Notes under the pieces: generated by a model | Databases searched by the model: none | Told to the model about the DNA's origin: nothing | The model's input: only the letters and a program-made list of their open reading frames with translations | Program-made: the position numbers and the translations under genes | Assembly: GCA_029204225.1 (NCBI GenBank) | Contig: CM055113.1 | Location: 12,588,402 to 12,652,401 of the forward strand | Length of the DNA: 64,000 nt | Direction of reading: 5' to 3' | Source: Diphasiastrum complanatum | Lineage: Eukaryota > Streptophyta > Lycopodiopsida > Lycopodiales > Lycopodiaceae | Part shown: in pieces, positions 641-45,800 of the stretch | Layout: each line of letters starts with the position of its first letter | Numbering within the stretch: the stretch's first letter is position 1

Positions 641-666
641 TAATTAATTTCCATGTTTTAGATTTA

Positions 667-2670: not shown

Positions 2671-2675
2671 ACCTT

Positions 2676-2684
2676 AAAGGGGAC
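2676..2684 (+). other. Polypurine tract of copia element
   Basis: AAAGGGGAC lies directly before TGTTGG, the standard arrangement of a plus-strand primer just before a 3' LTR. Confidence 0.75.
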
Positions 2685-3310
2685 TGTTGGAAATTATGCC
2701 CACAGATGCCTCCATGGAATCATAACTTAGATAGCCAATTTATTTGAGGGACATCTACAACAGACTTCCCTGATTTGTTGACCGTATATAAACTATGTAT
2801 AGATGTCACAAAAGCCATATACTTCCAAGTACAATGGCTTTCCTAATTAGGTGACAAACATTCAATGTAATTAATACACGGACGAAACCTATAAATAAAT
2901 CATAGATTATTGGTTGCTCCGTCCATGAGACATATTATTTAAGCCTCCATCCAGTCACGCCGTCAACTTTTGGTTGTAATTGCTATTTGTATTGGGCTTC
3001 AGTGTAATATACCAGCATCAGCTTTTCTATCTATGTATAACGTAGATGAATGCTTGTTGTGATTGAATGCACTTTATCGCTATTTGATCGCGCTTGTTTA
3101 CTCACTCTGATCAGATTACAGACATCTATGACTCCTCAGTTTTTGATCAGACGATGGCTATCTTTGACGCCTGAGGAACTCGCGATATCATATTGCTCTT
3201 CCATTTATTTCAGAACCATACTTCACATTGAATCTGATTTTCAGTAATATCACACACAAACTATTTCTAATCTCTTCGGTGGACTATACTTTCGTTTTTG
3301 AGAGTATGAA
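2685..3310 (+). mobile_element. Copia LTR (right end not fixed)
   Basis: The LTR begins TGTTGGAAATTATGCCC right after the polypurine tract. A TATAAATA box sits at 2890-2897. A relative begins at 51316 with TGTTGGAAACTGAG after an almost identical polypurine tract, and both are followed by a shared leader containing ATGAATTAATTTTTAA. The true right border could not be placed because no second LTR of this element is in view. A copia gag fragment follows on the same strand, so this LTR may stand between two tandem element bodies. Confidence 0.6.
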
Positions 3311-3553
3311 TTAATTTTTAAAATCATGTTGGACAATTAGAACACTTAAAGCTGTGATTACATCTAACATAAGCTGTCTATTAGACTGTTTTTGCATCCA
3401 GCAGCTGATTAGAATGGTAGAGCTGTTCTGCAATATTCTTGCTCTCTTCGCCGTTCACGTTTTTCCATCTCCCTTGTCCCCATCAATTCAATCTAGCCAA
3501 TTTTTATTGTGTGATATCGGGTTTTTGTGGTCTGACACATATGATGGCTTTTT

Positions 3554-3783
3554 ATGCAAGATTTCTCCAACAATTCATTATGGAAGGTGAGAATGGCATC
3601 ACTTCTTGAAATGAAGGATTTGTTGGACATTGTTGTAGGAGTGGAGGAAAGACCCTTGGCACAACAAGAGCAAATGAGGTATGACAAGAGATCTAAAAGA
3701 GCTCTACACATGATAAACATGAATGTTACTAATGAGCTTCTTAAAGAGTTTGGTAAGTGCGCATCATCTAATGTAGTCTAATA
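3554..3783 (+). pseudogene. Copia gag N-terminal fragment
   Basis: The 75-codon stretch has the layout of the copia gag start: SLWKVRMASLLEMKDLLDIV followed by a charged segment with KRSKRALHMINMNV. In this family the region is the N-terminal gag domain. It follows the LTR and leader on the same strand and is cut off at about 3783, next to inverted gypsy integrase. No ATG in good context was identified. Fragmentary and surely not functional. Confidence 0.6.
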
Positions 3784-3852
3784 AAAGATATGTAATCTAC
3801 ATTTCTACATTCTATTTCAAGTGATGCTACTTATGATCTAGATGTGACACGG

Positions 3853-5395
3853 CTATGTTGTGGACATTATTGGGTAAAACCTACATAATCTTTCCACAAA
3901 GATCTGGGCTAAATCCGAAGCCTTAGCAGTTGACTTGACTAGTATAAAAGTAGCTAACTTTGTCAACCTGTCCACCACAACCCAAATATAATCATTCTGG
4001 CGTTGGGTCTTTGTCCAACCACAAAATCCATAGATATACTTTCCCATCGCTTCTGAGGGGTGTAACAACCCTCCAGTCTTTAAGCATTCAGCGTTGGCTA
4101 ACTGGCAAGGTCTACAATTAAGCACATAAGACTTGACAATGAGTTTTGGCCAATAAAACTCTCTTCTGATCAAGTCCAAAGTCCTGTGTATACCCGGATG
4201 ACCTACACAGGGAACGTCATGACACTTATAAAGAATATTCTTCTTTAACTCATTATCCACTGGTAAACAAATTTTTCCATTCCGAAATAGTAACCCACCT
4301 CGAATAAAGAACTATTCCGCTATATTCTTATCTTTCTTAGAAACCTGAGACCCCTGTGAGTAAATCTCTATTCCATTCTCATTTTTTCTTGTCTCCACCA
4401 TCTTCCAGATGGGACCAAAATGAGAATCTAATTCACATTTTCCTCTCAATGAAAGATATAGATCAGTGCAAATTTGGGTGAATGAAAGTTCATTTAATTC
4501 ACCAATCCGACTAAGCGCATCTGCAACTTGGTTAGAGCTGCCCTTGACATATCGAATCTCATGATCGAATTCCGCATAAGCTCAGCCCAACGAGATTTAC
4601 GACCCCTTAGATCGTTCTGACTACAAAAGTACTTCAGAGGTTGATGATCTATATACACTATAAACTGACTACCATAAAGGTAATGCCTCTAGGTTTTAAG
4701 TGCATGTATCAAAGCAAATAGCTCTTTCTCCTGAGTTGTATAATGCAACTGAGGCCCCGTGAATTTCTTGCTTTCAAACGCTATTGGCCTATCATCCTGT
4801 AGAAGAACTGCCCCTATCACCCAATCACTTGCGTCAGTTCGCATGACGTAAGATAAATCAGGATTCACGATCTGTAAAACAGGAGCTGAAGCAACCATTT
4901 GCTTAAGTTTCTCAATGCATTGGGTCAATTCATCATTCCACTCAATAGGCTTACTAGGTTGACCTCTCTTTTTCTTTTTGTTAACTCTGTCTTTAGTCAA
5001 ATTATTTACAGGTTCTGCCACTTTAGCATAATCCTCAATTGACTTACAAAAGAAAACTATAAAATCGAGAAAAGATTTAACTTCTCTAACTGTCTTTGGT
5101 ATCGGCCATTCAAGCATTGTCTTGACCTTACTCTCATCAATCTACAACCCACTACTCCAAGGTACAACAACTCATGCTTAAAGAACTCACATTTAGATTC
5201 CTTAGCGTAGAGTTTCTCTCGTTTGAGAATATCTAAGACAATACTAAGATGACTCAAATGCTCCTTAAGTGTTCTATCTAAGAATACAACCACAAACTTC
5301 CCTAGATATGGATGAAAAAAATCGTTCATTATCTGTTGGAACATAGTTGGTGCATTCGTCAACCCAAAACGAAGCATGAGAGATTCATAGTTGAT
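3853..5395 (-). pseudogene. Ty3/gypsy RT C-terminus, RNase H and integrase
   Basis: Reading the minus strand: LRFGLTNAPTMFQQIMNDFF and FVVVFLDR (5377-5270, RT palm), RNase H with MRTDASDWVIGAVLLQ (about 4850) and LHYTTQEKELFALIHALKT, then the integrase zinc-binding region with GHPGIHRTLDLIRREFYWPK and CRPCQ (4200-4100) and the start of the DDE core (VVVDRLTKLATFI). The RT active site normally reads LDD; here it is LDR followed by a deletion. Stops fall at 4260 and 4689. The chain starts with YESLMLRFG fused to copia RT, the reciprocal of the plus-strand junction at 1344. Confidence 0.87.
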
Positions 5396-6759
5396 CTTCT
5401 TCTTGAAGATCCACTTGTTGTCGATAACTCTCTTGTGAGTGGGGAAGTCGACCAGTGTTCATGTATGATTCGTCAAAAGTGAGTTGTACTCGCTTTCCAT
5501 AGCTTCTTGCGACTTCACAACATTCTTGGAGTCAATTGCTTCGGCTAGGCTCTCTGGTTCTCCGGATGAAGTCCAAAATGATTGAGGTGCATATCTCCTA
5601 GGAACTGTCCGAGTCCGTGAGGATTTGCGGATGTTTGGTTGACTAGGATGCGATGATGCTTCATCTTGAATTTTTCTGGATTTACTCGAGCTAGCTTGGC
5701 AAAGCTGGGTTTTCCCATCCTTTGACATGCATCACATTTTTGAATGAAAGTTCAAACGTCTTTATAAACTGGTCTGATGACATGTACTGTCAGTTGGTCA
5801 GCTTCTATAGGTGTAGCTGCAGGTTTCGTAGAAGGAACATAAATGTTGGAAGAATCCATGCCATGTAAAATAGGATGAAATGACATAGCATCGTTTATCG
5901 ATGGTTGTTTGAAATCATAGTAATGTACGTTCTTGAAATATTACATTCCTAGAGGCAAATACTACATTGGTGGATGGATTATATACTTTATAAGCTTTAT
6001 GTTCATCAGGATAGCCAATGAAAGTACATTTATTTGTCCTATGATCCAGCTTCTTCTCAAGCTGTTTGGGAATGTGAACAAAACATGTACAACCCAAAAG
6101 TTTTAAATGCCTAACACTAGGCTTGTGCCCATGCCAAACTTCATAAGGAGTTTTGTTGTTGATGGCTTTGGTGCTGGATCTATTCTGCATGTAACAGGTT
6201 GTAGCAGTAGCTTTTGCCCAAAACTTCGCAGGTAGGTGTGCTTGATGTAATGGATCTGGCTGAGTTGAGAAGAGCTCGATTCTTCCTTTCTATGATCCCA
6301 TTTTGTTGAGGTGAATAGGAAGTGGTGAACTGTCTTCTAATACCATGTTCAACTAGGTAGTCAGACATCTCATTAGAGATGTATTCGTCGCCACCATCAG
6401 TTCGAAGTGCCTTCACTTTTGTAGACGTTTGTGTCTCAGCCATGGCCTTGAATCTCTTGAAGCATTTAAAGGCTTCAAATTTGTGCTTGATGAACATGAT
6501 TGTAGACCATCTAGAATAATCATCTATGAAAGGTATAAAATAGATTGCATCTCCTAAGGATGGAGTTGGCGTTATCGCTATGTACAAGATTCAATACATG
6601 CTTTGTTTTGATGGAATGTGATTCTGAAAACTTGCTTCTAGAGTGCTTCCCATAGATGCATGATTCACAAAAGAAAGATTTCCTATCTAATGAAGAAGAG
6701 AAATTTAGTCCATCAACTAAATTATCACAATGCACATAACAAAGTGATCTTGTATTCAC
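5396..6759 (-). pseudogene. Ty1/copia gag-pre-integrase, integrase and RT N-terminus
   Basis: Minus-strand order: gag-pre-integrase with CESCIYGKHSRSKF (about 6665), integrase with VHSD, FIDDYSR, RTDGGDEY and NGIIERKNR as the DDE landmarks (6600-6270), the downstream KTPYEVWHGHKPSVRHLKLL (6150) and GCTCFVHIPKQLEKKLDHRT segments, a linker (5728-5459), and finally VIDNKWIFKKK of the RT N-terminus at about 5415. There it passes in frame into gypsy RT. Frames are broken at about 6190, 5900 and 5459. Together with 1345-2670 it accounts for most of one copia pol gene, lacking about 35 codons at the junction. Confidence 0.87.
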
Positions 6760-6789
6760 GTGTCCAAATCAACTATGCCACAAAACAAC

Positions 6790-7390
6790 ATTGTCATTTA
6801 CGGAAAATATTTTTTGGAGTCCTAGCTAGAAGTAAAATTTGACAATGAGCTTAAATAGATAAAGAAAAAATAAATAAAATAAATAAGAAAGAGAAAATGA
6901 AACTAAAGGTGAAAAACAAAAGAAATAAAAGTGAGTCCCTTGATACTTTCTCTGGGCTTGTTTTTCTCTTCTTTTTTTTATTTTAATTTTTTTTATTTTA
7001 AAGATAAGATACAGATGATCGAGATGTGCTTTATGGAGCCTTCTCAAGTTGTTGGCCCTTCTCATCTTCAGCATCTCGGATTTGGCGATGGGATTGTGCG
7101 ACTACGCAAACAAATTGTGTCCACAATGTGCTGCGCATTATGAATTCCGAGCGAATTGGGCTGAATGCTAGGTGCATATTGCCCAGGAAATCCATTGTAT
7201 ACTATCGTTCCAACCTCACTATGTTGACAAAGGATGTTGCGGATAAGCGATAGTGTTGCAGGAAATAATAAAAATACAAGATTTTGGTGGTTTGGGCATG
7301 TTCGTAGGAAGCTGCATGGAAGACATAAGTGCACAAGTATTAGAAATGTAGTAAGTAGGCTGATCCTTAAAAAATCTATTGATGGTCTAA
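6790..7390. other. A/T-rich stretch, no gene recognised
   Basis: 6840-7010 is A-rich then T-rich low complexity. 7020-7330 has better base balance and short open frames on both strands, but no domain or splice pattern I recognise. Confidence 0.5.
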
Positions 7391-8020
7391 TTTGTGAGAT
7401 CTTATTGGGTTGATATCAATGGATCAATGTACAAGCCATTATCTCATGCGATACATTAAGTGTCCAAGTAGAGACTATGACGATTCTCCATGTCAATTCT
7501 AATGATTCTTCGTCATTATATGGGACTATGACTCTCTAATCGTAAAAATCACATTGTTATAATGTTGTTATTTTAAATTTTGATCATTGATCCATTTCAT
7601 TCTAAGCCTTTATTTCCTTTGGTCACATCAATGTGGCTTTATATTGTGAGAGAAAAAGAATATTGTCTATATACATAGATAATCACTAACAAATAAAACA
7701 AATTTTTTTATTGCATTGTATCTTCACATAAGCATTTGTTCATTTTGCAAAAATACAAGTACTAGTAGATGATCACGTAGATCTAATACATAAGGTATTC
7801 TTCATATAAATGAGATGGGGTATATATAAAGAAAATGTGTTCTTACTATTTTATGATATAAAAAATAAAGTATGGTCTCAATATGGGTGTTGATGAACAC
7901 GACAAAGATGCATGTAGTACCTAAATTTCACTAAGAGTAAATTCATGGGAATCCTTGAACCATTGAATGAGTTGACCCCAAGTTGGCTGAAATGAAGCCG
8001 GTGATGATCACACATGTGCG

Positions 8021-8055
<35 letters not shown>

Positions 8056-8170
8056 CCACACACACACACATACACACACACAAAATTATTAAAAGATATC
8101 TCAATTCTCCAAAAATAGCATGGACTAACATGCACAAAGACTCAAATCATGACCAATTCAAACTCTAAGT
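7390..8170 (+). repeat. Dispersed repeat shared with 29945-30730
   Basis: Long stretches align with 29945-30730, for example ATCAATGGATCAATGTACAA and GTGTCCAAGTAGAGACT. In both places the block lies on the downstream side of a minus-strand CVNH lectin gene copy, so block and lectin probably moved together. No coding content was seen. Confidence 0.75.
8021..8080 (+). repeat. 34-nt poly-C run followed by CA repeat
   Basis: C34 at 8021-8054, then a G, then CA-rich repeat to about 8080. Copy B has 33 C. The related site near 30690 has only CA repeats, so the C run expanded after those copies split. Confidence 0.97.
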
Positions 8171-8574
8171 ATATAGATCACTTGAGATGATCAATTTTCA
8201 ATGTGGATCGAGCTATAGTGTGGCAACCCTTTTAGCTTCAGAATTGGACTTGAGATTCTACTATTTTAAGCATCTGATCAGATCTGTGGAACTAGTGTTT
8301 GGGAAAGCTAGGATAACCTAGGAATGAAACCTTCATATTCTCTCAAAAACCAACATGCCAAAAAATTTATAGGATTTTTTATGTCATAAATCTTGGGTTT
8401 TATAAGGAAAATGAGCAAGTAAAATATTATCACTCATTAGACATCAAAGAACTCCTTAATATATGGGTTTTTTGAGAGAAACCTCAAAAATATTTTTTGT
8501 ACATTGTCTGTAGCCCAACATTAATTATATCACAGGTTATGATTTTTTCAATCGTCAACACTTCAAGATTAGTG

Positions 8575-9000
8575 CTAATCTGGTCTTCCAATAGAGATCA
8601 TATTCTACAGTTGTTCCATGATAGATCACCTTGCTAGTTTGCAACCCTTCTCTCCACGTTGTACAAGGTGGTGGATCCCAAGGTGGTGGATCCCAAGTTT
8701 CCAGCATCCTTGTAGCACTTAGCTGCTATACCCCGACTGCCAGTTTCTATTTGTTAACAACGAATGTTTATACAGGTAGCTACAACATCACTCATGACAT
8801 CTACAAGGTTGCCATTGTTGTTACTAATGTGTGAATTGAGGTCAAGGCTGGCATGTTGGTAACCTCATTGAACGTCACCACAAATACATATTGTATGAAC
8901 ATCACCACAAATACATTGTATGACTCTAGTTGAGATCGTTGTTATGCTACCACAAGTAAGTGTAAAGCCACCACACTGCACAATACAACTTGTAACGTCT
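8575..9000 (-). pseudogene. Decayed CVNH lectin copy
   Basis: The stretch aligns on the minus strand with the second exon of the intact CVNH gene at 32161-31772; shared landmarks include the reverse of CTCTCCACGTTGTACAAGG and GGTTGCCATTGTTGTT, and the exon 5' end with CCACACTGCACA. It is broken by a duplicated GGTGGATCCCAA, frameshifts, and a duplicated ATCACCACAAATACA. No signal-peptide exon was seen upstream. It represents a dead paralogue carried in the duplicated segment. Confidence 0.75.
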
Positions 9001-9183
9001 ATCAAAATGTATAATGCACTATATTAGACACACACAATATTAGACACACACAACCTAGTTGAGATCGTTGTTATGCTACCATAGGTAAGTGTAAAGCCAC
9101 CACACTGCACAATACAACTTGTAACGTCTATCTAAATGTATAATGCACTATATTAGACACACAATATAACATACATATATATA
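8926..9183 (+). repeat. 129-bp tandem duplication
   Basis: CTAGTTGAGATCGTTGTTAT starts at 8926 and again at 9055; the two units are nearly identical and cover the 5' end of the dead CVNH exon plus flank. Confidence 0.9.
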
Positions 9184-10240
9184 ATATATCTCATGATAAA
9201 ATATTATATATTTTTATACACAAAATTTCGGAAATGAATCTGCACCTAAACGACAATATTAGCATAATGACAGCTATATTATTATGGATCAAAGGATTAA
9301 ATATTGCATAGTGTCGTATCGTAGGGTAAATATTTTTACCAAAGATAAAAGTACCTACCGCTGAGTATAGTGGTCTTAAATAACAAAAAAAGACATAGAA
9401 ATAGATAAAACATGCAACATAAAATAAAATAAAGTCAAATAATCATCCTAAATACAACAAAATCTAGAAAATCTTATTGCGGTATGACCTATTGACTAAC
9501 CGCGAAAGTTCATTTTCAAACTTTACTTCCAGGTCTAGGACTCCAAAATATATCTTTAAGAAGTTATCCTCTCTTAAATCAAAGTTTCAGGTTTATTCAC
9601 GGATTTAAAACCTAATATTTGTTCCATGACCCTTGAAAAACACCCTAAACCCTAAACCCTAATTCATTTTCACATCAAATCCTCAAATAACCATGAGATT
9701 TTTTAAAACATGTCAATTCATATCATTCTTCAGGTCCAATAATTTATAAATCATCATTTCATCACAATGAACACATTGAAACAAACCGTGTGTAAAATAG
9801 ATGTCAAATAACCGGGTTGTGGCAGTCAAACTTGTTCACGAAAAATAAGGCTAAAACATGCCACATGAAATCCATAATTTTCAATTCAGAGAATTAGAAT
9901 CCAAATTATTCCAAGAACTAGTCCAAAATATTCTTCATTAACTTGCACGTATAACGTTCAAAATAGGTTTTGTAACTAATGTTGTTAGAGTGTCCGAACA
10001 CATGAAGGTAGTGAAGTTAAAATATATCTTGAAGCCATATATACCTCAAAATATCCATCCCAATCAATTCTCAGTCCTCATCTCTCTGAGTAATCATTGC
10101 ATGTTGTTGGAATATGCATACTTATACTCCTCTTTTGTGGGAGACCCCTTTACGCCATATTTTTGCATGGGTGATTGTAATTTAAACAAGTTCACAAATA
10201 ATCTAGAGTACTACAAGAAGATTACAAGAAAATAAAATTT
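9184..10240. other. No gene recognised; short telomere-like tract inside
   Basis: A/T-rich sequence without recognisable coding content. A TATATATAATATATC-like stretch lies near 9175-9195. An open frame at 9990-10235 has no recognisable features. Confidence 0.4.
9643..9662 (+). repeat. Interstitial telomere-like repeat
   Basis: CCCTAAACCCTAAACCCTAA, almost three units of the plant telomere repeat. Such short tracts are also common in plant promoters, so it need not mark a former chromosome end. Confidence 0.8.
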
Positions 10241-10243
10241 GAA

Positions 10244-10665
10244 TTACAATATCAAATTCAACATATGGGTGGGGAGTAGCTTGAACATAATGTTGAAATC
10301 CTTGGGCATGATGGTCACCCTCTTAGCATGGACAGCTGCAACAACAGTATCTAAAAAAAATTTCACTTGAAAATCCTCATATATAGTGTGTAGCGCCTCG
10401 ATTGCCGTTACAGTCCATCTCACATCTGCAGATAGACTTCTTGTAAGTTGTTTGATGGATCTTTGTATGTGAGCTTTCGGAATCAGAAGATTATTGGCCT
10501 TTTGTACTTTCAAATATCCTTGAGCCAGGGTGGGTCTCTTCTTCTGCCCCTTGGCCTTGGAGGAGGTGGTGCTGAACGAGACGACGGTGGTGCATTCCCC
10601 TAACCCCCTCCTGTGATTGGGATTCCACCAGGGTGGACTCGTGCTGTCTGCTTAGTCCATGCCAT
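10244..10665 (-). pseudogene. Histone H3-derived gene, truncated copy
   Basis: From ATG at 10665 the protein begins MAWTKQTARVHPGG, matching the canonical H3 tail except for R2 to W and the K9-T11 positions. A Pro/Arg-rich tail (RPRGRRRDPPWLKD) leads into an alphaN-like segment, then the histone fold ends with AVHAKRVTIMPKD, identical to H3 over HAKRVTIMPKD. A TAG replaces Gln at codon 22, a TGA stands at codon 52 and a small deletion follows near codon 57. Homology to the copy at 37891 stops after FNIMFKL, so the C-terminal extension is missing. A TATA-like TATATAAA lies at 10895-10906, 235 bp upstream; two inverted modules lie between it and the ATG. Confidence 0.82.
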
Positions 10666-10673
10666 TAGTATCC

Positions 10674-10744
10674 AATATTGGATCAGCGCGCAATAAAGGA
10701 TAACTCAGATTCAGAGGTCAGGTCAAGCGCGTCGAACCGATATC
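10674..10744. repeat. Inverted-arm module M1
   Basis: Left arm AATATTGGATCAGCGCGC (10674) is an imperfect inverted match to right arm GCGCGTCGAACCGATATC (10727); starts are 53 bp apart. It ends 8 bp upstream of the ATG of the minus-strand H3-like gene. Confidence 0.9.
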
Positions 10745-10767
10745 TGAAATAAACCTGACCGATAGCT

Positions 10768-10838
10768 GGTAGCAGATGGACTCGCGCGAGTAAAAGCGGA
10801 TGGAAGGAAGTTTGCTTCGAGCGCGCTGAATCAATATC
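10768..10838. repeat. Inverted-arm module M2
   Basis: Right arm GCGCGCTGAATCAATATC at 10821 is strong; the left arm at 10768 (GGTAGCAGATGGACTCGC) is weak, but the spacing is again 53 bp. It lies in the leader of the H3-like gene between the TATA box and M1. Confidence 0.6.
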
Positions 10839-10894
10839 ACATGGATATAGAGAATGACAAGAAATTTAAGCAAAAAAATTTCAGCATTGTCTGT

Positions 10895-10906
10895 CTGTTT
10901 ATATAG
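10895..10906 (-). promoter_or_regulatory. TATA box of H3-like gene
   Basis: Minus strand reads CTATATAAACAG. The same element precedes the second H3-like copy at 38120-38131 at the same 235-bp distance from the ATG. Confidence 0.6.
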
Positions 10907-11130
10907 AAAAAATCGCAAACGTGCTGGTTTGGATGTTCGAGGCTCGGATTACTTCAAAATATTCAGAGGCTTGTCAATCAAATCAAATTAAATATCAATC
11001 TTTCTTCAAAATGATTAGTCGATAATAACTACCACAATTAATTAAAACAAAAGTATGGTCACATTTAGAATTAATTCTACAAAAGTATGGTCATATCTAC
11101 AATTCATTGTTGAAATTGACAAGGTTAAGC

Positions 11131-11138
11131 TATAAATA
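11131..11138 (+). promoter_or_regulatory. TATA-like box upstream of M3
   Basis: TATAAATA on the plus strand, 64-71 bp before module M3, the same layout as at the two genes nearby. No coding start follows M3 and M4 directly, so this may be a promoter that lost its gene or an alternative upstream start for the gene at 12083. Confidence 0.4.
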
Positions 11139-11201
11139 TCTTACCTTTTTTATATCCAATCATAATAACTTTGGAAAATTCCAACGACCATTATTTCACC
11201 C

Positions 11202-11272
11202 AATAGCAAATCAACGCACATATACTGAATGTGTAAACCAAAGAGGCCATTCTCGCGCGTTGAACCGATATT
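11202..11272. repeat. Inverted-arm module M3
   Basis: Left arm AATAGCAAATCAACGCAC (11202) pairs with right arm GCGCGTTGAACCGATATT (11255); start spacing 53 bp. Confidence 0.85.
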
Positions 11273-11394
11273 GGAAGATAATATGAATGATCAAAGCTTG
11301 ACTCGATACATTGTCCTTAGCTGTGGACAATATGAAGAGTCTATCAAAATACCCTCCCATAATTTCAAAAATTTTCCAATTTTTTTTTTACTAC

Positions 11395-11465
11395 AATAGC
11401 GATTTGACGCACGCAATGCAAGTGAAAAATCATTGTCTTCTCCACAGGCGCGCTGATCCGATATC
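11395..11465. repeat. Inverted-arm module M4
   Basis: Left arm AATAGCGATTTGACGCACGC (11395) pairs with right arm GCGCGCTGATCCGATATC (11448); start spacing 53 bp. Confidence 0.85.
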
Positions 11466-11798
11466 TTAGACGCACTGAAAATATATTGGAACGCATTATG
11501 AACGTCTTATGAAAATATTTTGAATGAACATTATCTCAAAAGGAAAAATCTCATTTTTACGGTCTTTAAATAGGGTGAGAGTCTATAATAATTCTCCTTG
11601 TACATGTTTTCAATGTTGTCCATTAAATATTTGTTTATTATTTAGCTAATAATGATTCGGTGAGGCTAATGATAGACTATTTAATGTATTCCCTGCGTAG
11701 GTACAAATTTGTCTCACTCTGATTGGTGGATAAATATAGGTTGTGTTTCTCAATTCATTATTTGACAAATGTATGGCTATGATCAATAGGAATTGGCT

Positions 11799-11806
11799 AT
11801 AAATAT
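11799..11806 (+). promoter_or_regulatory. TATA box of the gene starting at 12083
   Basis: TATAAATA on the plus strand, about 285 bp before the ATG and 80 bp before module M5. Confidence 0.5.
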
Positions 11807-11884
11807 GGACACCTTTCTCCATATTTCGATTCCAAGATCTTTCATTCTGAACTCACTAGTGATCTTGTTTTCTTTCTTTCTCGT

Positions 11885-11955
11885 GATATCGAATTTACGC
11901 GCGCCTTCCCATATAGTGCACGGTCGGATTCATTTAGGCACGCTGAATCAATATC
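11885..11955. repeat. Inverted-arm module M5
   Basis: Left arm GATATCGAATTTACGCGC (11885) pairs with right arm GCACGCTGAATCAATATC (11938); start spacing 53 bp. It lies between the TATA box at 11799 and the ATG at 12083. Confidence 0.87.
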
Positions 11956-12002
11956 AGTCTCTTCTGACGTGTTCTTGCAAAAAATTTCATTCTTGTCCTA
12001 AC

Positions 12003-12073
12003 GATATCGAATCAACGCGTGCACTGTGGTTCATTCCTCTACCAATATCATTTTGTAGCGTTGAACCAATATC
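12003..12073. repeat. Inverted-arm module M6
   Basis: Left arm GATATCGAATCAACGCGT (12003) pairs with right arm TAGCGTTGAACCAATATC (12056); start spacing 53 bp. It ends 9 bp before the ATG at 12083, mirroring M1. Confidence 0.9.
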
Positions 12074-12082
12074 AGGTTCAAT

Positions 12083-13542
12083 ATGGCTAGTTCCTCCATG
12101 TCCTCAGATAACAAACTTCTGGATTTTTTGAATGCTAGTGACATTCCATCTGAGAAATTAGAGTATTTTGTGAGTATTTTTTTTGCTCCCTTCAATATCG
12201 ATAAGCTAGTTTATGAAAATCATTATAATTTAATTTCTTATCTTGATAATTTTTCTCATACTATTAGTTTTCTTGTTTTGGATATAGATAGTTTTTGTTT
12301 CATTCATTTTCAGGACCTTGTGCATTCCCAACCATCCTCTAAGCATAAATACAATAGAAAGTACTCTAGCCTGCATGACCATTTCAAAAGAAATATATAT
12401 TGTGATATTCACAAGAATATATCGCCTTATAATCAAAGGAATGGCTTTTGTCTTTTACGTATCTGCTGAAATTTCCAAATGATGAGTCTGTTAAATCTTC
12501 AACTGTTCCATTGATCGAAGCATTTGCACCTACTCCAGTTGATGTAGATGATGCAGATACTGATATAGAGAATGAAGCTGAAACATCTATGGCTTCAGAT
12601 TATCAAAAAACTCTCCATCGTTCTATTATCCTCTTTGATTATCTTCCATCTGCATCTCCTGTTAATCAATTAACTCTACTCGATGTTCCCTTATATTTTA
12701 TAAATAATGAAAGTTATATTTCATTTAATGATATAGAAGATGTTTTGAATTTGAGAGAGGATGAAATCCTCTCAATTTTTTCTCAAAATTTATCAGCATT
12801 TGCCGACATTGTTGATTACACATATGATGACCTTGAAAGTGAGATAGATTCTGATAAAGATGGGAAGTGGAAATCTGGTAATGAGGCCTTGGAGGCCATG
12901 ATTAAAAAATCTAAAGCCTATGAAAAAACTTTGCCTACAGAGGAGGAATTTTTGGAATTCCAAAAAAAATATCCCCCAAGGCCTGGATATATCCCCTTTG
13001 GAAATGTAGAGGCCATTGGAGGACATGACATGATATTATATTGGTATTGATATTGTTCAGTTTTCTTATTTCAAACATTGTGTTAAAGTATGAGTTTGCA
13101 GTGTTATGTATCATTCTAAATTTATTTATTTTTCTTGTTTACAGGATGCTATTGAAATTGATGCCTTTGGTATGAGACATGGAGGCGTCCGAGGTGTATC
13201 AGCCGGGAGAAAGGATGCGTCTCCATCTCATTATTTGAAAAACTTTCAAAATAATGAGATATCATTCATCTTTTAATCCATATGCAACCACTATCATTAT
13301 GGCCATCAAATCATTATCAGTTTGTTTAAAAGGCCATAAGTACACAAGAGGAACATATAAAATAATTTTTGTGAAAAGGGATTTGGCTATTAAGATATTG
13401 GGTTATACTCTCAATGAGACTACAAAAAGATCATTTGCAATGGCCCTTTAATTGGGTTACATTGATATGAGCAAAAGGAAAAATTTAGAATTTTTGGATC
13501 CATATGAAAGGAGATTATTCCTTCATGATGAAGATAATTAAA
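12083..13542 (+). pseudogene. Unrecognised spliced gene, divergent to the H3-like gene
   Basis: The ATG at 12083 opens an exon (MASSSMSSDNKLLDFLNASD) ending at a GTGAGT donor near 12171; an acceptor (TTTTCAG) near 12314 continues in phase with DLVHSQPSSKHKYNRKYSSL. A later frame, 12448-13050, is acidic, with VDVDDADTDIENEAE and a C-terminal PPRPGYIPFGNVEAIGGHD. A further exon-like stretch after an acceptor at about 13144 reads DAFGMRHGGVRGVSAGRKD. Frames do not all join: shifts near 12440 and 13250 and a stop at 13449 suggest decay. I do not recognise a family. Its leader carries modules M5 and M6 and it shares 1.4 kb of intergenic DNA with the H3-like gene, so the two may be co-regulated. 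Confidence 0.5.
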
Positions 13543-13649
13543 CAATTTTCTGTAATAGATTTTTGGTATATTACAAGGATCTCTCTTTTGTTGTGAATTT
13601 GAATGCCTTTCGAAATATTGTAATACTTGGCGAGTTTTTAGCTTGATAT

Positions 13650-15897
13650 CTAAATTGTGCTCTTCTCTAAAACCATTGAAAAAGTTGAACTAAATTTACT
13701 TCTTGAATTGTGTCCTCCATAATTTGTTGTTCTATAAAATGCTCCCCTTGCTTGCCAATGAGATTTTTCCAAGCCTTGTGATGACCACATACTTAAGCTC
13801 CCATATTCCTTTGCAAAATAAGTTGCATGATGAAGAAGAATGTGCTGCAAACAATAGTTTTGATTAGTTACATCAGTAGAAGAAAATATAAGCCTGAATG
13901 AGAAAGGTACCAGATAATGATATAGATTAGCACCATGTAATGAGTAACGTTGTCTTTTTTCCGACAATCATGTACATATTTTACAAATGTGGTGCAATGA
14001 TTTTGCAAAGTCCTCATATCTTCTGATGATAGGTTTTCTTTCCTGAGAACACCTATGAGTTTGTCTAAGTTGGTCCACACTTGTCCCTTTTCCACTCGAT
14101 TACTTCCTTCCAGTGTTCGTGTGGCTTGAACAATTTCTCTCCAAATTTTGTATCTGACACTTGATTCTTTGCATGTGTGATTGGATAAGAATCTTCTTGC
14201 TTTAGCACTTCCAATTGATGGCTTATTAGGAACGTTTCTTTTTTTCCCGTAGAGTCTGTCACTTTTTTCAATCATGACATTCCCTTTATGTAGTCCTACA
14301 TTTGACGGAACTATTTCCAGCCTCCTAATTGATGCTTTAGCCACAGACTCCGGTTTATGATTCCATGCTAGTATAATATATAGGTAAATAAGTTTTTCAA
14401 TAATATGATCCTCAACATGCAATGTGCATATGTGAATATTTTTTAATGGAATTGGCAAAACACTTTTCATATTTGGATCTTCAACTTCTCGTGTTGAACC
14501 AGTGTTTGTTGATCATCCCAAATTCATATTGTAGCATTCCTTCATGCAATAAAGACATGGATGCTTTGATGTTGCCCCATGAGAGACATTATACATACAT
14601 TTTAATGTATTCAAATCTCCTGCAAGGTGCCCGTGAATTTGAAAACTTCCATGGTTTTCGACTGTAAATTTCTCACCCTCCAAATGTCTCTTTATAATCT
14701 TGCCATAATTTGTTCTTGAAAATATCCTTAAAAGTATTTTATGGCCCTCTTTCAAGACTTGTAGAGAATGCATGACATGTCAATAAAAACTGGCAAGGTA
14801 TGAATTGTTAATAAGGATATTCTAAATGAAAATTGAAATGTATACCTGGAATGCTGCCAACCACCATATGTGATTTTTCGATTGAACACTAAACGTTCAA
14901 TCATTTGTATCTGAAATTTTGTTCATCAAAGTGACACTCAGTCATTCCAACTTTTGACCCTTGATGATTTCAGATTCATCCAATTTTATCACAATAATGA
15001 TCTTTCCATTTACTTGATGTTCGTCTAGTTTATAGAATTGAATAATGTGTTTTAAAACATTTTTAATATCAAGGAAAATGTTATTGCAATCGTTGTAATT
15101 GAGTTCACCATATTCTGATTTGTATAATTCAACTATATGAAGTGGTTGACCAACTACTTTGCACATTCCGTCATTATGATTATTTCTTGCTAATCTTACC
15201 TGATATGGACGCAAAATGCATGAACAATCTATTAAATAGTTCTTTGCCACCAAACATGATCTGGAACAAATATATGAAACTTGAATTATGTTTAATAAAT
15301 AAATAATCCATGTTATCAAGTGCAAATCAAACTTAAATGACATATACAAATCAAATGAACAGTTTATATGACAACATACTTGAATGCTCGAATTCTTTTT
15401 TTCTGATTGCCACTATGTGTAGATAAGTCATCAATATTCTTCATCGGTATTCTCTTTATTTTCTCTTCATCATTGCCTTATTGATAGCTTGTATATCAAC
15501 AACACATGTTAAACTCTCGGATCACAACTTTTCCATGGATTCTAACATTTCTTTGGTTTATCCCCGAAGAGTAGTGATTGTAGCATTCAACTCTGACATA
15601 GCATTCTTGAGTGCATTGTTTTCAGCACTAGTGAGTTGCATAATGAAACAATTGTTGATTTGCACATTGCAATTGTTGATTTGCAAACTGTAATTGTTGA
15701 TTAAGACAAGATATGCTATGCATTCCAATATCATGCAACCTTTGACAATATCCAAGTAATCTGTTATTTCCTTCACATACATATCTGAGAAGATGAGTTA
15801 CGGACTTAAAAGCTGGACACAAATGGGTAGCTGGATTATTAGGATAAATTGATCCATCCACCCGCAAATCTACATTCATTTGATTATTCATTCTCAA
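13650..15897 (-). pseudogene. Decayed multi-exon gene with a CxxC element, family unknown
   Basis: Minus-strand open stretches follow each other at 15897-15558, 15349-14942, 14773-14513 and 14470-13868. The first has a Gln-rich coil with repeated NQQLQFANQQLQCANQQL. The second carries IIVIKLDESEIIKGQK. The third has GDLNTLKCMYNVSHGATSKH followed by PCLYC, a pattern that recurs in uncharacterised repeat-associated proteins. The fourth is basic and charged (RYKIWREIVQATRTLEGSNR). Exon borders could not be joined reliably and stops lie between pieces. It could be a transposon-borne gene, but no DDE triad could be placed. Confidence 0.4.
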
Positions 15898-15899
15898 TT

Positions 15900-16278
15900 T
15901 TCTAACTATTGTAGCAGCATTCTATACAACTTTCGCCTTTTTCTTAATAATTGGAGTGCATTCCATCAAAAGAGCAACATGCAAATGGAACATTGTCATT
16001 GATAAAAGCTACAATCATGTAAATGCATCAAACTATGCTAAATCAATATGATTAGATCTAGCATACCTTACTTTTGTAATGTTTATGTCGCATTGAAAAA
16101 TTGTCCCGCCTCATATTTCACTATAAGCATACATTAATCTCAAAAGTTTTGCCACTCTCGCTTCAGTTTTTGCATTGAGCACACCAAGATTTTTAGTCTT
16201 AAAGCTCTAGTCCCGAATATGGGAATGAGCATGAAGAGAAGTTATTACATCTCATGCTTAACTAACTATTGTTTGAAG
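15900..16278. other. No gene recognised
   Basis: A/T-rich sequence between the decayed gene and the copia gag remnant; no supported feature. Confidence 0.4.
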
Positions 16279-16880
16279 TTAACCATACTGTTTAAACGTC
16301 GGGCAAGGCCGAAAACTCGAAAAATGGCGACCAGAAGTTACCGGTTTGCATTCTCCCTCTACATAATCTCTCAAAAAGTGAAATCTCTTAAAGGACCCAT
16401 TTTGAGCCCATATTTCCCCTAATGGGGCATTCTGCTTTGTCTTCGACATAGTTTGAATTTGAAGGTTCGCTTTGATTCTACTCCTTTTTGTTTCTAGCAT
16501 TCTGATAACAGTCTACTACTGCGTGATACCATTCATGACAATAAATGCAATCAATCTTTGGATTTAGCCAACGCTTTTCTTCTATGTGACATGATCTTAT
16601 GCATCTGTTGCAGATCTTCTTAATCGCTAGAATTGTTATGTTGTTTTCCAAATTGTTGTTCATTAGTCTTAGACTCATTCTTCTTAGACGACTCCCTCTG
16701 AAACTTAGACTTCTTAGAAGATTTATTCTTCTGAGTAAATAGAGCATTTTCTGAATCACCATCATCATCATAGTGTTCACAAGCTTCTACTTCCTCCTTC
16801 ACTCTGTCTATTGCCTTTTGAAGTGTCATTGTCGCATCTTTCGCCAATAAGGTTCTTGTTGTGTGGAATGACCTGGGTAG
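16279..16880 (-). pseudogene. Copia gag fragment
   Basis: Minus-strand frames read AKDATMTLQKAIDRVKEEVE, an acidic stretch, a basic Lys/Ser-rich stretch, and a Cys/His cluster CIYCHEWYHAVVDC (C-x2-C-x4-H-x4-C) at about 16530, the zinc knuckle of a copia gag. The knuckle is a variant but keeps all four ligands. Frames shift at about 16620 and 16500. A short downstream match to the region before the copia element at 42850 (GGACCCATTTTGAGCCCATA) suggests the same or a related family. Confidence 0.6.
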
Positions 16881-17014
16881 GGTTCAAAGAAAATAAGTAA
16901 GCTGTTTTTCCTTAGAAATTTGTATTTTCTGCACTAGAATTTTGCAAGGAAATAAACAAATCTTTAATCTTTCGCACGAATGTGTTCAGGTCTTTGTCGT
17001 CCCACTATAGGTCC

Positions 17015-36619: not shown

Positions 36620-37891
36620 TTAATTTAGTATAACTACATCATCATTTGCACCATCATCAATAACGGGAGGCTGAAGCCTTGCCCTAGCTAGCCCCAGTCT
36701 GACGTATTGGAGCATATTATCGTGCAGAATTTTGAAATCAGAGAAATCAAATGCAAGGATGAATTGAAGGAAAAACAATGCTACATCTATAAACAATGGG
36801 GTCTGGAAAACATCCATCCAGTATTGAATTGCCCCACCTCCTACATTGTCACCTAACATTTTATCTCTACTTTGTAATTGACCTGTATCTAATTTAGAAA
36901 GGAGAAGACTAGCATTGGTCTTCAGCATCTTAAAACTGTATCTAGGACCTAAAGCTTTAAGATATGTGTTCAACAATTGGTCATACAGTACATATTGAGG
37001 AGTATTTACAAAGGCAAGTGCAGGGTGTGACGAAAGTAATACAGATAAACCACAAAAAGAATTGTCATTCAAAATTGATTCTACCTTTTCATTTACAAAA
37101 ACATCAAAATCATTTCCTACAACAGGAGGTGGGGAACTAATATTTGTGGGGGTAGGAAGAGACAGAGATTTTGAAGGAGGAGGAGGTTTATTAGAAGAGG
37201 AAGGTCTAGCAAGAGAAGTTAATAATGGAGTTCTGGGAGGTGAAGAAGGACACTTAGGAGGAGACTTGGGAGGAGATTGCCTAGTAGAGAGAATCTCGTC
37301 CAGAGGAGATGGCTTTGAAAAATCCCTCGTTTTATTAGGAGGGTCATGAGACCTCCTCTTTTTTGAAACACTCCCGCTCTATATACAAAAAACAAGCCGG
37401 GATGTTTGAGATTGTTTTCGTTTTCTCCTCTCTGAATCTTGTTTTGGAGGAGAGGAAGCAGCAGGTCTAAAGTACTCTGCAAATTTATCATATTTGTCCC
37501 GTAGCCTGAACACAATGTTGAAATCCTTGGGCATGATGGTCACCCTCTTGGCATGGACAGCTGCAACAACAGTATCTGAAAAAAATTTCACTTGAAAATC
37601 CTCATATGCAGTGTGCAGCATCTCAATTGCCATTACAGTCCATCTCACATCTGCAGATAGACTTCTTGTAACCTGTCTGATGGATCTCTGTATGTGAGCT
37701 TTTGGAATCAGAAGATTAGTGGTCCTATGTAGCCTTCAAATATCCTTGAGCCAGGGTGGGTCTCTTCTTCTGCCCCTTGGCCTAGGAGGAGGTGGTGCTG
37801 GACGAGGCGATGGTGGTGCATTTCCCTGACCCCCTCCTGTGATTGGGATTCCACCAGGGTGAACTCGTGTTTTCTGCTTAGTCCATGCCAT
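36620..37891 (-). pseudogene. Histone H3-derived gene with long C-terminal extension
   Basis: ATG at 37891 starts MAWTKQKTRVHPGG, H3-tail-like. Residues 25-46 are Pro/Arg-rich; 47-62 correspond to H3 alphaN; 60-140 cover the histone fold, ending in AVHAKRVTIMPKDFN. From 140 the protein goes beyond H3: DKYDKFAEYF, a basic stretch (ERRKRKQSQ), a Pro/Ser/Lys-rich linker (about 172-255), and a globular-looking domain to codon 423, ending in an acidic IDDGANDDVV. The whole frame is open except TGA at codon 52 and TAG at codon 171; the latter follows a TTTTTTGTATATAG string that resembles an acceptor. Normal H3 has 136 residues. Either a recent pseudogene or stops removed by unseen splicing. Confidence 0.78.
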
Positions 37892-37899
37892 TAGTATCC

Positions 37900-37970
37900 A
37901 ATATCGAATCAGCGCGCGATAAAGGATAACTCAGGTTCAGAGATTAGGTCGAGCGCGTCGAACCGATATC
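37900..37970. repeat. Inverted-arm module M7
   Basis: Left arm AATATCGAATCAGCGCGC (37900) pairs with right arm GCGCGTCGAACCGATATC (37953); start spacing 53 bp; ends 8 bp from the H3-like ATG, as M1 does in the paralogue. Confidence 0.9.
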
Positions 37971-37993
37971 TAAAATAAACCTGATTGATAGCT

Positions 37994-38064
37994 GGTAGTG
38001 GATGGAAGCGCACGAGTAAAAGCGGATTGAAGGAAGTTTGCTTCGACCATGCTGAATCGATATC
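37994..38064. repeat. Inverted-arm module M8
   Basis: Right arm CCATGCTGAATCGATATC at 38047, weak left arm GGTAGTGGATGGAAGCGC at 37994; start spacing 53 bp. Paralogue of M2. Confidence 0.6.
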
Positions 38065-38119
38065 GCATGGATATAGAGAACGACAAGAAATTCAAGCAAA
38101 AAAATTTCATCGTCGTCTG

Positions 38120-38131
38120 TCTGTTTATATA
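38120..38131 (-). promoter_or_regulatory. TATA box of the second H3-like gene
   Basis: Minus strand CTATATAAACAG, 235 bp before the ATG, with M7 and M8 between. Confidence 0.6.
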
Positions 38132-38916: not shown

Positions 38917-38929
38917 TAGCTATTTCTCG

Positions 38930-39724: not shown

Positions 39725-39725
<1 letters not shown>

Positions 39726-39759: not shown

Positions 39760-39920
39760 TGTACCTTTTGGTAGTACACTTCACTTTTTGGAGATTTTAT
39801 TACTCATAATTGTTTTGAGTCCACATTAAAAATGACATAACTTTTTAGTGGTAAGTCCAATTTCAGCGGAGATTGGTGCGTTAGGAAGCACTTGACGAGC
39901 GCCTTCCAATGATATGTTAT

Positions 39921-39990
39921 ATGTCGGTTCGACGCGCCCTTGTAGTTATTGTTTGGTTTCTTTTCAAATCGTGCGTACTGATCCGATATT
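39921..39990. repeat. Inverted-arm module M9
   Basis: Left arm ATGTCGGTTCGACGCGCC (39921) pairs with right arm GCGTACTGATCCGATATT (39973); start spacing 52 bp. Confidence 0.8.
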
Positions 39991-40006
39991 CAAACAATAT
40001 TTTTTG

Positions 40007-40077
40007 GATATCGGTTTGACTTGCGCTTGTTTCCCTTCTCGATTTTATTATAACATCATGCGCGTTGATCCGATATC
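40007..40077. repeat. Inverted-arm module M10
   Basis: Left arm GATATCGGTTTGACTTGCGC (40007) pairs with right arm GCGCGTTGATCCGATATC (40060); start spacing 53 bp. It lies 28 bp before the Ulp1-like exon. Confidence 0.9.
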
Positions 40078-40105
40078 TCATAATGTTAAAATTTTGATAT
40101 TGCAG

Positions 40106-40468
40106 TCCTCCCAGCAGGTTGATTCTGTAAGCTGTGGTTGGTATACGATATGCAACGCCAAACACTTTTTCAATTGGCTTGCACTACATGATGGACTTCC
40201 TAATCTAGAAGAGGTAATCTTTGATTAATAACATTTAACTGTGTTTTTGTATTTTTTTCATAATCAAATTTCTAATAACTAATCTTAAACTGTGTGTATG
40301 TTTTTTTAGTTTAAATGTCCGAAGGTCTCCCCAATGGAGATAATGCACTTCAAGCAGGAGACCATAAAGCTTGTGATCAGGAATTCATATCCAGTTGCAG
40401 TGGTAGGTTGTTCTCCACCCAAGCTACTTCCAACTGGAGAAATGGATTTAGAGATCATAGATAGTTGA
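40106..40468 (+). pseudogene. Ulp1-like (C48) cysteine protease C-terminal exons
   Basis: Exon 40106-40213 encodes SSQQVDSVSCGWYTICNAKH and LHDGLPNLEE; the Q-x(7)-C-G spacing matches the oxyanion Gln and nucleophile Cys of Ulp1/SENP proteases, which process SUMO-like tails. A GTAATC donor and TTTTTTTAG acceptor join it in phase to 40310-40468 (KVSPMEIMHFKQETIKLVIR, ending GEMDLEIIDS). The N-terminal part with the catalytic His and Asp is not visible; the frame remains open upstream to 39914 across modules M9 and M10, so the true exon start is uncertain. Ulp1 domains are often carried by plant Mutator- and CACTA-type elements. Confidence 0.6.
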
Positions 40469-42849: not shown

Positions 42850-45800
42850 GTTGAAAGCGTGCAAAGGGCCCATTTTGAGTTCTAATATCCCCTAATGAGA
42901 GCAGCAGAAAACAGGACAACAAGGAACTCAACAGCTTATATTAGTACTGATCTATGTTGTTCATCTAATTCAATTCGAGAAGTAGTACTTGATCCAGGAG
43001 CCACCTCACATTTTGTTTCCTTGAAACAAATTTTGTCTGAGTACAAGAAGATGAACTATTTGAGATTCATTATACTTGGAGACAATTCTAAACACGTGGT
43101 TTATGGAACTAGTGTATTATGGCTGGACACGAATCAGGGAGACAAGAAACTGGAGGAAGTTCTCTATGTCGCTACTCTTGATAAAGATCTTATATCTGTA
43201 GCTAAGATAGTCGATACAAAAATGTCAGTAACCTTCACAAAGAACTCTTGTAAACTTTTCGAGGAAGATTCTGATAACTTGGTTGCTAAAGGCAACATAG
43301 AAGGAAATTTATATCACCTGAACATACGAACAAGTTAATCAAAATCAGGAATCGACAGATGTACTATGGCACAAGAGGCTATGTCACATGAACATGGAAG
43401 CCTTGTACCAAGCCAACAAAAGTCAAAGAATTCAAGGAGTCAAAATCACAAGTAGAGATATTTGAACTACCTATGAATCCTATCTTAAAGGGAAGATGAC
43501 TAGAACACCTTTCAGTAAGGATGTTTATTAAGCAACTAAGGTACCTGAAATTGTGCATTTAGATATTTGTGGACCATTCGGAGTATTGTCATTGAGTGAT
43601 GCAAAGAACTTCATTACGTTTATTAATGACTTTAGCAAATTCGTTGTAATATACTCTATTCGTACCAAATATGAAGCTTTCAAGAAATTCGTTGAGTATA
43701 CGAATTGGGCTGAGAAGCAGACAAGCAATAAGTTGAAGCAGATTTTCATAGATCATGGAGGTGAGTACATTTCCAACGTATTCAAAGCTTACTGTATTGA
43801 TCAAGGTTTTATGCACACGAAGACTGGATTTTATACACCTCAACACAATGGAATAGCTGAACAAAGGAATCGTACACTGATGGAAGCTACAAAGTGTATG
43901 ATGGCTCATGTGAAGGCACCAAAACAGTTGTGGGCAAAAGCAGTGGCTACATCAAATTATCTTCAGAATCGCAATTTGAAATCTCAAATACTAGATAAAA
44001 CTCCTCATGAGATATGGTGGAAATTGAAGCCAAACCTTGCACATGTTCGGACATTTGGATGCATAGTGTATATGCACATACCAGATAAGCTGAGAAAGAA
44101 ACTCGATGAAAAGACAAAACAACGTTTTCTGGTAGGATTCGAGTTACATTCGTCATATTATCATGTCTATGTACCCGAATCTGGCAAGATAAAACTTGTG
44201 CGAGATGTTAAATTTGATGAGATGAAATACATAGCAGAAAGTGATCTAGTCGGCTATGAAATTCTCAAAATTTATTATGAGCTACCAACAACAACAGAAG
44301 AAAAACAAGCAGAAGATGAAAGAGAGTTACCAGATTTAGAGGGAGGTCAACTTTCGAGTGTCTGACAGACTCGAATCGCCAGTTCAAATTCTAGCAGAAA
44401 AGCTCGAATCAGAATCGGACTTGAAACGTATAGAATCGAATTTGAAACCACCCATGAGAAGATCTGATAGACAACAAAAACTACAAGAAAAGTATGGTCA
44501 GGATGTTTTAAATACAACCATCAAATTTTGTGGATTCTTTGACGAACCTCAAACATTCGAGGAAGTTGTAGATGGACCAAATAAAGATCACTAGATTTAG
44601 ACAATGGAGGACGAAATGTCATCCATGTACAAGAACAATGCATGGACACTTGCACCAATACTTGATGGCAGAAAACCAGCCAAATGCAAATGCATCTACA
44701 AGATCAAAACAGGTCCTGATGGAGAAAACATCAGATACAAAGCAAGGTTGATTGCTAAAGGATTTTCATAGAAATATGGGATCGACTACACTAATAATTT
44801 CTCATCGGTAGTCAAACATACATCAATTCGCTTGTTCTTTCGTGTATGCAGTGGCTCATGATCTGAAAATCCATATTGTGGATGAGAAAACTGCTTTCTT
44901 GCACGCAGAATCGGAAGAATACTTATTCATGGACCAACCACTTGCTTTTGTAAGCCAAGAATATCCAAAATAGGATGTCACATGAGTAAAAGCATTTATG
45001 GTCTGAAACACGCAGTGAGACAATGGTATAGAAAGAAGGACGAATCACTACGTTCCTTAGGCTTCAAACCTCTATTTGTTGAGTCAAATGTCTATATCAA
45101 ACATGTCCAAAATGAAATAATCATTCTAGCTGTCTATGTTGGTGGCACACTTATCTTCTCAAGAAGAGATAAGTTAATTTCAGATGTCAAAAGAGACATT
45201 TCTGAAATATTTGAGATCACTGACCTAGGAGAAGCTAAAATCTATCTAGGCTTGCAGATCGTGAGAGACTTTGAAGGTGGTAAGTTGTATCTTCACCAAC
45301 AAAAGTACACTCAAAAGAACATTGAAGACTTCAACATGCTCGAATGCAAAGGCGTACATACTCCCATGATACCTGGAACAATATTGAGCATGGCAGATTG
45401 TCTGCACTCTTGAGGAAGAGGAACGAATGGCCAAAACACCCTATTGTAGGTTGATTGGATCATTGTTATATCTAGCAGACAACACCAGACCTGATATAGC
45501 GTTTGCAATATACAGGCTGAGCCAATATAATCAGAACTCAGGATCATTGCATTGGAAGTTGGCAAAGAGAGTACTAAAATATCTCCAGGAAACGAAAGGC
45601 TATGGACTGTGTTATTCGAAGGAAGTTGGATTTTACATCGAATCTTACAGTGACGCAAGTTGGGCATCCATGAAGGATGATGACAAAAGTATTTCAGGAG
45701 GTTGTACTCTAGAATTTGGCGCAGCCATACTCTAGATCAGCAAGAAACAAACAGCAGTAGCTCAATCTTCCTGTGAAGCGGAATATGTAACAGTAGCCAA

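Follow-up and report, generated by a model that had tools for sequence, protein, structure and literature searches.

Paired 18-bp arms at a fixed 53-bp spacing in the non-coding DNA of a plant transposon carrying a histone H3-like gene

In plants, transposons are kept silent by methylation of DNA and of H3K9. In maize, the En/Spm element encodes TnpA, which binds repeated subterminal motifs, including inverted pairs, and is linked to demethylation of the element promoter. The best documented case found of a transposon countering silencing with a sequence-addressed factor is VANDAL/VANC of Arabidopsis. The motifs of VANC21 lie in non-coding DNA of VANDAL21 genes, both intronic and upstream (PMC5735166), and VANC21 binds such motifs and relieves silencing (PMC5735166, PMC10398659). 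An Ulp1 domain is present in some VANC genes (KIU/Kaonashi; reviewed in PMC13317346). In Dothideomycetes, a captured H3 gene is carried by a hAT transposon that measures about 9.5 kb and has terminal inverted repeats (PMC6710886). Pseudocercospora fijiensis contains 784 H3-like sequences, H3 having been amplified to hundreds of copies by the hAT element; the element has a hAT transposase domain and an 8-bp target duplication, and its copies are inactivated by RIP and mostly truncated (PMC6710886). Direct or inverted repeats were not identified in the element (PMC6710886). H3 capture by a DNA transposon and recognition-like sites in transposon non-coding DNA are already known; what is unusual in the case described below is a rigid two-arm design together with an H3-like gene beside such sites. 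A search of titles and abstract openings, largely of open-access work, returned the fungal hAT case and no H3-like gene in a plant transposon.

The window analysed here is a stretch of 64,000 nucleotides from the lycopod Diphasiastrum complanatum (contig CM055113.1 of assembly GCA_029204225.1, positions 12,588,402 to 12,652,401). It contains modules of 71 bp, in which two arms of 18 bp, the right one inverted, flank a spacer of 35 bp. These modules are parts of a dispersed, very abundant plant DNA transposon of about 10 kb with terminal inverted repeats, and not free-standing promoter elements. The element resembles VANDAL in that element-specific motifs are repeated in non-coding parts of its own genes and accessory genes stand beside the putative transposase gene. 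The VANC21 motif comprises nine bases in dense same-orientation arrays, whereas here the non-coding motifs are inverted 18-bp arms at 53 bp, and it is whole modules that stand in tandem at one locus (L086). VANDALs are also non-TIR MULEs, in contrast to the present element, which has an imperfect inverted repeat of about 30 bp in common at both ends, (C)ATTAGGGG...CTCAAAATGGGCCC, an H3-like gene and no MULE match in Pfam. Among the Pfam matches of third-gene pieces, which derive from broken copies with no intact protein in the scan, neither a MULE nor any other transposase model was present. The likeness to the fungal element is that of a TIR DNA transposon of similar kind carrying an amplified H3; the differences are the missing hAT match and target duplication, the recurrent altered tail and the leader modules. 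No hAT model was among the Pfam matches of the pieces scanned, their broken state making this domain test weak, and visual inspection of two copies that retain both ends (C9 in L029/L030, and L045) showed no target-site duplication, of 8 bp or otherwise. Compared with En/Spm, the motifs are mostly internal rather than subterminal, and the element shows no CACTA terminus: the GGGG-type repeat follows CATTA in 9 of 11 ends examined, and the broken pieces gave no CACTA transposase match in Pfam.

Table 1. Coordinates of modules, genes and terminal repeats in the window.
Feature	Position	Strand	Remarks
H3-like gene fragment, frameshifted	10276..10665	-	ATG 10665, tail MAWTKQTARVHPGG; Pfam Histone E 3.9e-16 for ORF 10244-10651
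M1, nearest H3-like start codon	10674..10744	-	arms 10674-10691 and 10727-10744
M2, second in H3 leader, weak left arm	10768..10838	-	arms 10768-10785 and 10821-10838
TATA box, H3-like gene	10895..10906	-	CTATATAAACAG on minus strand
M3, between two divergent genes	11202..11272		TATA-like site 11130-11139, ~60 bp before M3
M4, between two divergent genes	11395..11465		position-10 asymmetry opposite along the element to the other seven
TATA box, gene B	11797..11806	+	CTATAAATAT, ~80 bp before M5
M5, first in gene B leader	11885..11955	+	
M6, second in gene B leader	12003..12073	+	ATG of gene B 9 bp on
Gene B (MASSSMSSDNK...), broken in window	12083..13050	+	no Pfam match above cut-off
Third gene, perhaps transposase, broken	13420..16300 (approximate limits)	-	no Pfam transposase match
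R-end terminal inverted repeat	16392..16424		
Second H3-like pseudogene, C-terminal extension	36620..37891	-	ATG 37891; Pfam Histone E 9.8e-18 for ORF 37379-37735
M7, second copy of M1	37900..37970	-	
M8, second copy of M2	37994..38064	-	
Frame with M9/M10 and later H3-like exon	39896..40228	+	QQVDSVSCGW, Ulp1-like cysteine motif, weak
M9, inside inferred intron of H3-like gene	39920..39990	+	
M10, same inferred intron as M9	40007..40077	+	just ahead of inferred 3' splice site
L-end terminal inverted repeat, second piece	42867..42897		
Further M1/M2 copy, duplicated segment	63814..63978	-	

Ten modules had been described in an earlier, sequence-only reading of this DNA, and every one of them was recovered (Table 1). 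The fixed geometry claimed there is upheld and its single exception of 52 bp is removed, as M9 begins at 39920 and not at 39921; the arm starts then lie 53 bp apart, with a gap of 35, in 10 of 10 modules. The block with M7/M8 (37501-38310) is a second copy of that with M1/M2 (10276-11083), at 89% identity, so that their spacers are related and the independent modules in the window number eight (M1-M6, M9 and M10). The statement that spacers share no sequence does not hold for M7/M8 against M1/M2. A 10.85-kb direct duplication (16-10860 against 53152-64000, 99.87% identity, about 53 kb apart) includes an extra copy of M1/M2 at 63814 and 63908. M1/M2 and M7/M8 belong to the predicted 5' leader of an H3-like gene on the minus strand, and M5/M6 precede gene B. 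The proposed position between a TATA box and an ATG, with the inner module 8-9 bp from the latter, is confirmed for M5/M6 (9 bp) and for M1/M2 and M7/M8 (8 bp each), with the correction that TATA and ATG of the latter two pairs are on the minus strand (ATGs at 10665-10663 and 37891-37889). M9/M10 do not share the leader placement given to the family and are assigned to an inferred intron instead.

The arm score was trained on 17 of the 20 window arms, omitting the three weakest, and the window counts are therefore partly circular: 22 arms score at least 14, whereas none of five shuffles yielded more than one. As a non-circular check, the pattern GCGCGYTGAWYCGATATC was matched 387+385 times genome-wide and its reversed control 0+0 times. 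When pairs of strong arms up to 300 bp apart were tallied in the first 53 kb of the window and in 16 stretches from eight other copies, 39 inverted pairs at 53 bp were counted. The runner-up class, inverted at 147 bp, held 9 pairs.

The first gene of the element encodes an H3-like protein, for which Pfam and PDB matches show both the H3 fold and the H3 N-terminal tail. PF00125 was matched with E values of 1.9e-18 (L086) and of 3.9e-16 and 9.8e-18 (the two window copies), and the PDB matches are H3 entries, with a best E of 2e-15 for a window copy and of 7e-19 for L086, aligned from residue 1. Besides this alignment, likeness to histone H3 and CENH3 extends to a core histone domain above the Pfam cut-off and an ARTKQTAR-like tail. 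In contrast to these proteins, the element H3 is without K9, has a Pro-rich stretch after the tail and a C-terminal extension, and is multi-copy in a transposon. Behind the H3 domain come a linker, a region with DHWSLYV and, past the putative intron that holds M9/M10, QQVDSVSCGW. Two hand-spliced peptides were compared with PF02902 (Peptidase_C48), of which the longer gave an E of 0.44, below the cut-off, and the shorter no match; with the motif order read by eye, an Ulp1-like extension on the H3-like protein is only a suggestion. For gene B and the third gene, the pieces scanned, which are broken, matched no DNA-binding or transposase model in Pfam above the cut-off. The third gene may be the transposase.

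The structure of the element was compared in 16 stretches around eight copies, most closely in C9, C18 and C6. In these three, the order is L-end, later H3-like exons with M10/M9, H3 start with M1/M2, M3 and/or M4, M5/M6, gene B, the third gene reading back, and R-end. Some of the compared copies miss parts of this order, and several are truncated. The modules thus occupy predicted 5' leaders, the gap between divergent genes and the putative intron. Genome-wide, the R-end pattern was matched 476+418 = 894 times at up to 3 mismatches and the L-end pattern 369+388 times at up to 1 mismatch, with controls of 0 in both cases. Queried against the genome, the M1/M2 block gave 416 first-look candidates, of which the 40 scored show 84-100% identity, and the M5/M6 region gave 835, of which 40 were scored. 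In the window, the element is present as rearranged pieces (10276-16424, 36692-38310 and 39921-42897). In the second, rearranged piece (36692-42897), a copia-type gag fragment (39297-39686) lies between H3 and its later exon. An apparent empty site was noticed in copia-like sequence at L044:5820-5890, where the window ends 16424 and 42897 fit; the element ends read C|ATTA...TAAT|G there, with no target-site duplication, as though inserted at CG.

The original framing of the modules as a plant promoter element is not supported, because they belong to this transposon and also occur in what appears to be an intron. That they are parts of one longer ordinary repeat, which had been named as grounds for abandoning the idea, is half borne out: they do sit in a longer repeat, yet eight unlike modules per element and their retention across diverged leaders want an explanation of their own.

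That the modules recur in 5' leaders was confirmed in copies chosen by protein alone. The sample comprised 20 H3 matches starting at query residues 1-8, with about 450 bp upstream of each and spacings of 50-56 allowed. Upstream modules were found in 19 of these 20 copies, which fall into four clusters, 14 of them in the window's own (L086 forms a fifth). The 36 modules detected have spacings of 53 (30), 52 (3), 51 (2) and 50 (1), and mononucleotide shuffles of the leaders contained a module in 0 of 1000 cases. In 13 of 20 leaders (window type), about 8 bp separate the last module from the ATG, and in four it abuts the start (L088, L091, L096 and L102, the last with ATA in place of ATG); the last detected module is far from the ATG in L089 and L107, and L090 has none. 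TATAWAW is present in 17 of 20 leaders and in 396 of 1150 shuffles of the same leaders and three others. The diverged L086 carries four tandem modules (starts 3179, 3258, 3339 and 3418) with a period of 79-81 bp, ending at the ATG at 3487; their arm spacings are 53, 53, 53 and 52, and their spacers differ. Two further modules are located upstream (2478 and 2569), and another at 5110, soon after the inferred donor, is in an intron position equivalent to that of M9/M10.

Our favoured reading, held with moderate confidence, is that each module offers a two-part DNA site to a putative transposon protein, which would keep the genes of the element unsilenced and/or autoregulated in a VANC-like manner. 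The earlier proposal of binding sites for a dimeric regulator is retained in part: fixed 53-bp geometry, unconserved spacers and leader location fit it, and a dimeric or bipartite protein remains a candidate from the sequence. A constant length with free sequence between the arms fits recognition as DNA, both arms lying on one face of the helix (53/10.5 = 5.05 turns). The candidate protein would grip both arms through two DNA-binding halves at a rigid distance of five helical turns, while the spacer would carry no information. It would be encoded by the transposon and, bound at the non-coding DNA of the transposon's genes, might block their silencing and/or autoregulate them, as VANC does on VANDAL. 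Points against this reading are the negative Pfam result for gene B and the third gene, the relatedness of the sampled leaders, the lower conservation of arms than of spacers within the window family, the exceptions at position 10 and in L089, L107 and L090, and the different layout of VANC motifs.

A somewhat unlikely alternative is that the transposon exploits a dimeric factor of the host, with the two arms, five helical turns apart, as its binding sites. Many modules are promoter-proximal, the leaders mostly have a TATA-like site, and such a factor might recognise the arm core, ATCGATAT. The distribution of arms speaks against it. Short regions were fetched around 40 exact arm matches (the first 41 of 66 listed, minus one already in the set), and 35 of the 40 have a further arm signal (score >9), so the sequence looks tied to modules and not scattered at host genes. 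The partner arm (score >9) lies at 53 bp in 27 of the 40, at 52 in 4, at 54 in 1 and at 55 in 1; it is absent or degenerate in 7. Eight of the regions whose partner arm lies 52-55 bp away (L057, L061, L064, L067, L069, L076, L084 and L085) gave no blastn match at E<=1e-4 to the eight window modules. The plant histone-promoter octamer, prompted by the H3 gene, was considered and set aside, since the arms appear to resemble it only loosely and sit downstream of TATA.

A second rival, which we regard as distinctly improbable, is an RNA leader, in which an 18-bp stem with a 35-nt loop in the transcript would control translation or splicing. Modules are located in predicted 5' UTRs, often adjoining the ATG, as well as in the putative intron, and RNA folding of 15 modules showed 9 to beat dinucleotide shuffles at z <= -2. 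Such folding is, however, expected of any inverted repeat, and 4 of the 15 remained at z > -1. The compensatory arm changes sought since the sequence-only reading did not appear. Own arms pair at 14.6 of 18 positions, compared with 15.3 for arms from different modules (0.012 of permutations as low); in H3 leaders, the values for own and cross-module arms are 14.0 and 13.8 (18 modules, P 0.19) and 12.6 and 13.1 (26 modules, P 0.998). Some mismatches are constant. All 26 window-type H3-leader modules oppose an upstream A to a downstream T at position 10, and all 18 of the second type are mismatched at position 8, where a downstream C faces an upstream G (16) or A (2). The position-10 opposition holds in 116 of 121 sequences across eight window-family module groups; as a universal rule it was rejected, since outside the window family only 21 of 27 partners conform (21 T : 6 A). 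Without covariation between the arms, an RNA stem is unsupported, and the structured 5' leader offered as an option at the outset is not sustained. Rfam gave no match at E<=1 in 9000-17000, the region of M1-M6. Altogether, folding, permutation covariation and the Rfam search of this region gave nothing beyond what any inverted repeat gives. A fixed 35-nt loop without loop conservation also fits DNA phasing better than an RNA stem.

Very unlikely, too, is the idea that the modules are fossil repeats without function, inherited along with the transposon. The window copies are broken, and within the window family the arms, which contain several CpGs, are less conserved than the spacers in 14 of 16 arm-spacer comparisons, as post-insertion CpG decay would give; we infer such decay as the cause. 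Between leader types, by contrast, the arms of the last modules are retained at 68% identity and the spacers much less, at 36% compared with 28% for shuffled spacers (20 comparisons, five chosen against four chosen last modules); spacers of the second type still share 50%. The eight unlike modules of an element have arms and spacing in common, which likewise argues against a fossil. A local alignment of M3/M4 with M5/M6, considered as a duplicated promoter, covered only 11 bp and was equalled by 27 of 300 shuffles, and this candidate was dropped.

We give equally little credence to cis sites for transposition, whether bound internally by the transposase or used for resolution. Inverted motifs are frequent targets of transposon proteins, there are several modules per element, and in L087 a module (2445-2515) is located about 450 bp from the R-end (about 2972), unlike in the other copies compared. 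Against this, modules lie kilobases from both ends in the copies compared, and the terminal repeats differ from them in sequence. L045, a 2.56-kb derivative with both terminal repeats and part of the third gene, has zero arms scoring >9; it might be an in-place deletion and not a mobile form, and since it keeps both ends with no module, the modules are probably not required as transposition ends. A virus had been a first idea, in view of paired sites before several genes, and was discarded, as the ends are terminal inverted repeats and no viral family was among the Pfam matches for the element genes.

Exceedingly unlikely are tetrasome addresses, in which the element's H3 and host H4 would wrap 71 bp with the arms symmetric about the dyad: the (H3-H4)2 tetramer does wrap about 71 bp, the modules have two-fold symmetry and the element carries an H3-like gene, but histones are not known to recognise 18-bp motifs, and the fixed 53-bp phase suggests specific contacts.

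The tail of the H3-like protein was tallied in 24 sequences (20 H3 copies, the two window copies, L086 and L007), from which L116 (frameshifted) and L127 (degenerate) were excluded. In the remaining 22, residue 4 is K throughout (22/22), and residue 9 is V (8), G (8), L (4) or I (2) and K in 0 of 22, where selection of alignments from residues 1-8 favours a retained tail and not K9 loss. These tails span L108-L126, the window starts 10665 and 37891, L086:3487 and L007. A scan of loci L001-L044 that was blind to residues 4 and 9 returned 20 tails, several of them the same locus counted twice and eight with stops, with K4 in 20 of 20 and V9 in 20 of 20. In plants, H3K9 methylation directs non-CG methylation (PMC10398659), and a K9-less H3 therefore invites an anti-silencing reading. 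A CENH3-like donor could also explain the absence of K9. K9 loss as an evolved trait was set aside, since it may be inherited from such a donor: the element H3 is 36-44% identical to H3.1 and two CENH3 proteins, similarly for both. A broader proposal, which we consider unlikely, is a transposon lineage with its own chromatin system, in which an H3 that keeps K4 and lacks K9, perhaps with a SUMO-protease-like extension, would act with the 71-bp two-armed address sites to mark the element's own regulatory DNA with silencing-resistant chromatin.

Alongside VANDAL/VANC, the element described here may offer another, differently constructed example of a transposon countering silencing, with a rigid two-arm DNA code of about 53 bp and a changing spacer ahead of an element-borne H3. 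A protein reading two sites five turns apart, and a transposon escaping silencing by its own histone, are the questions it opens to testing.

The third gene, used as a genome query, gave 9824 first-look candidates; among the 150 scored, the query's own locus was matched at 100% and the rest at 83-89% identity. Open frames reach up to 430 aa among these 150, and one 430-aa frame was without a Pfam transposase match. The H3 protein of L086 gave 5939 candidates, and the 150 of these that were scored all have E<=1.2e-29.
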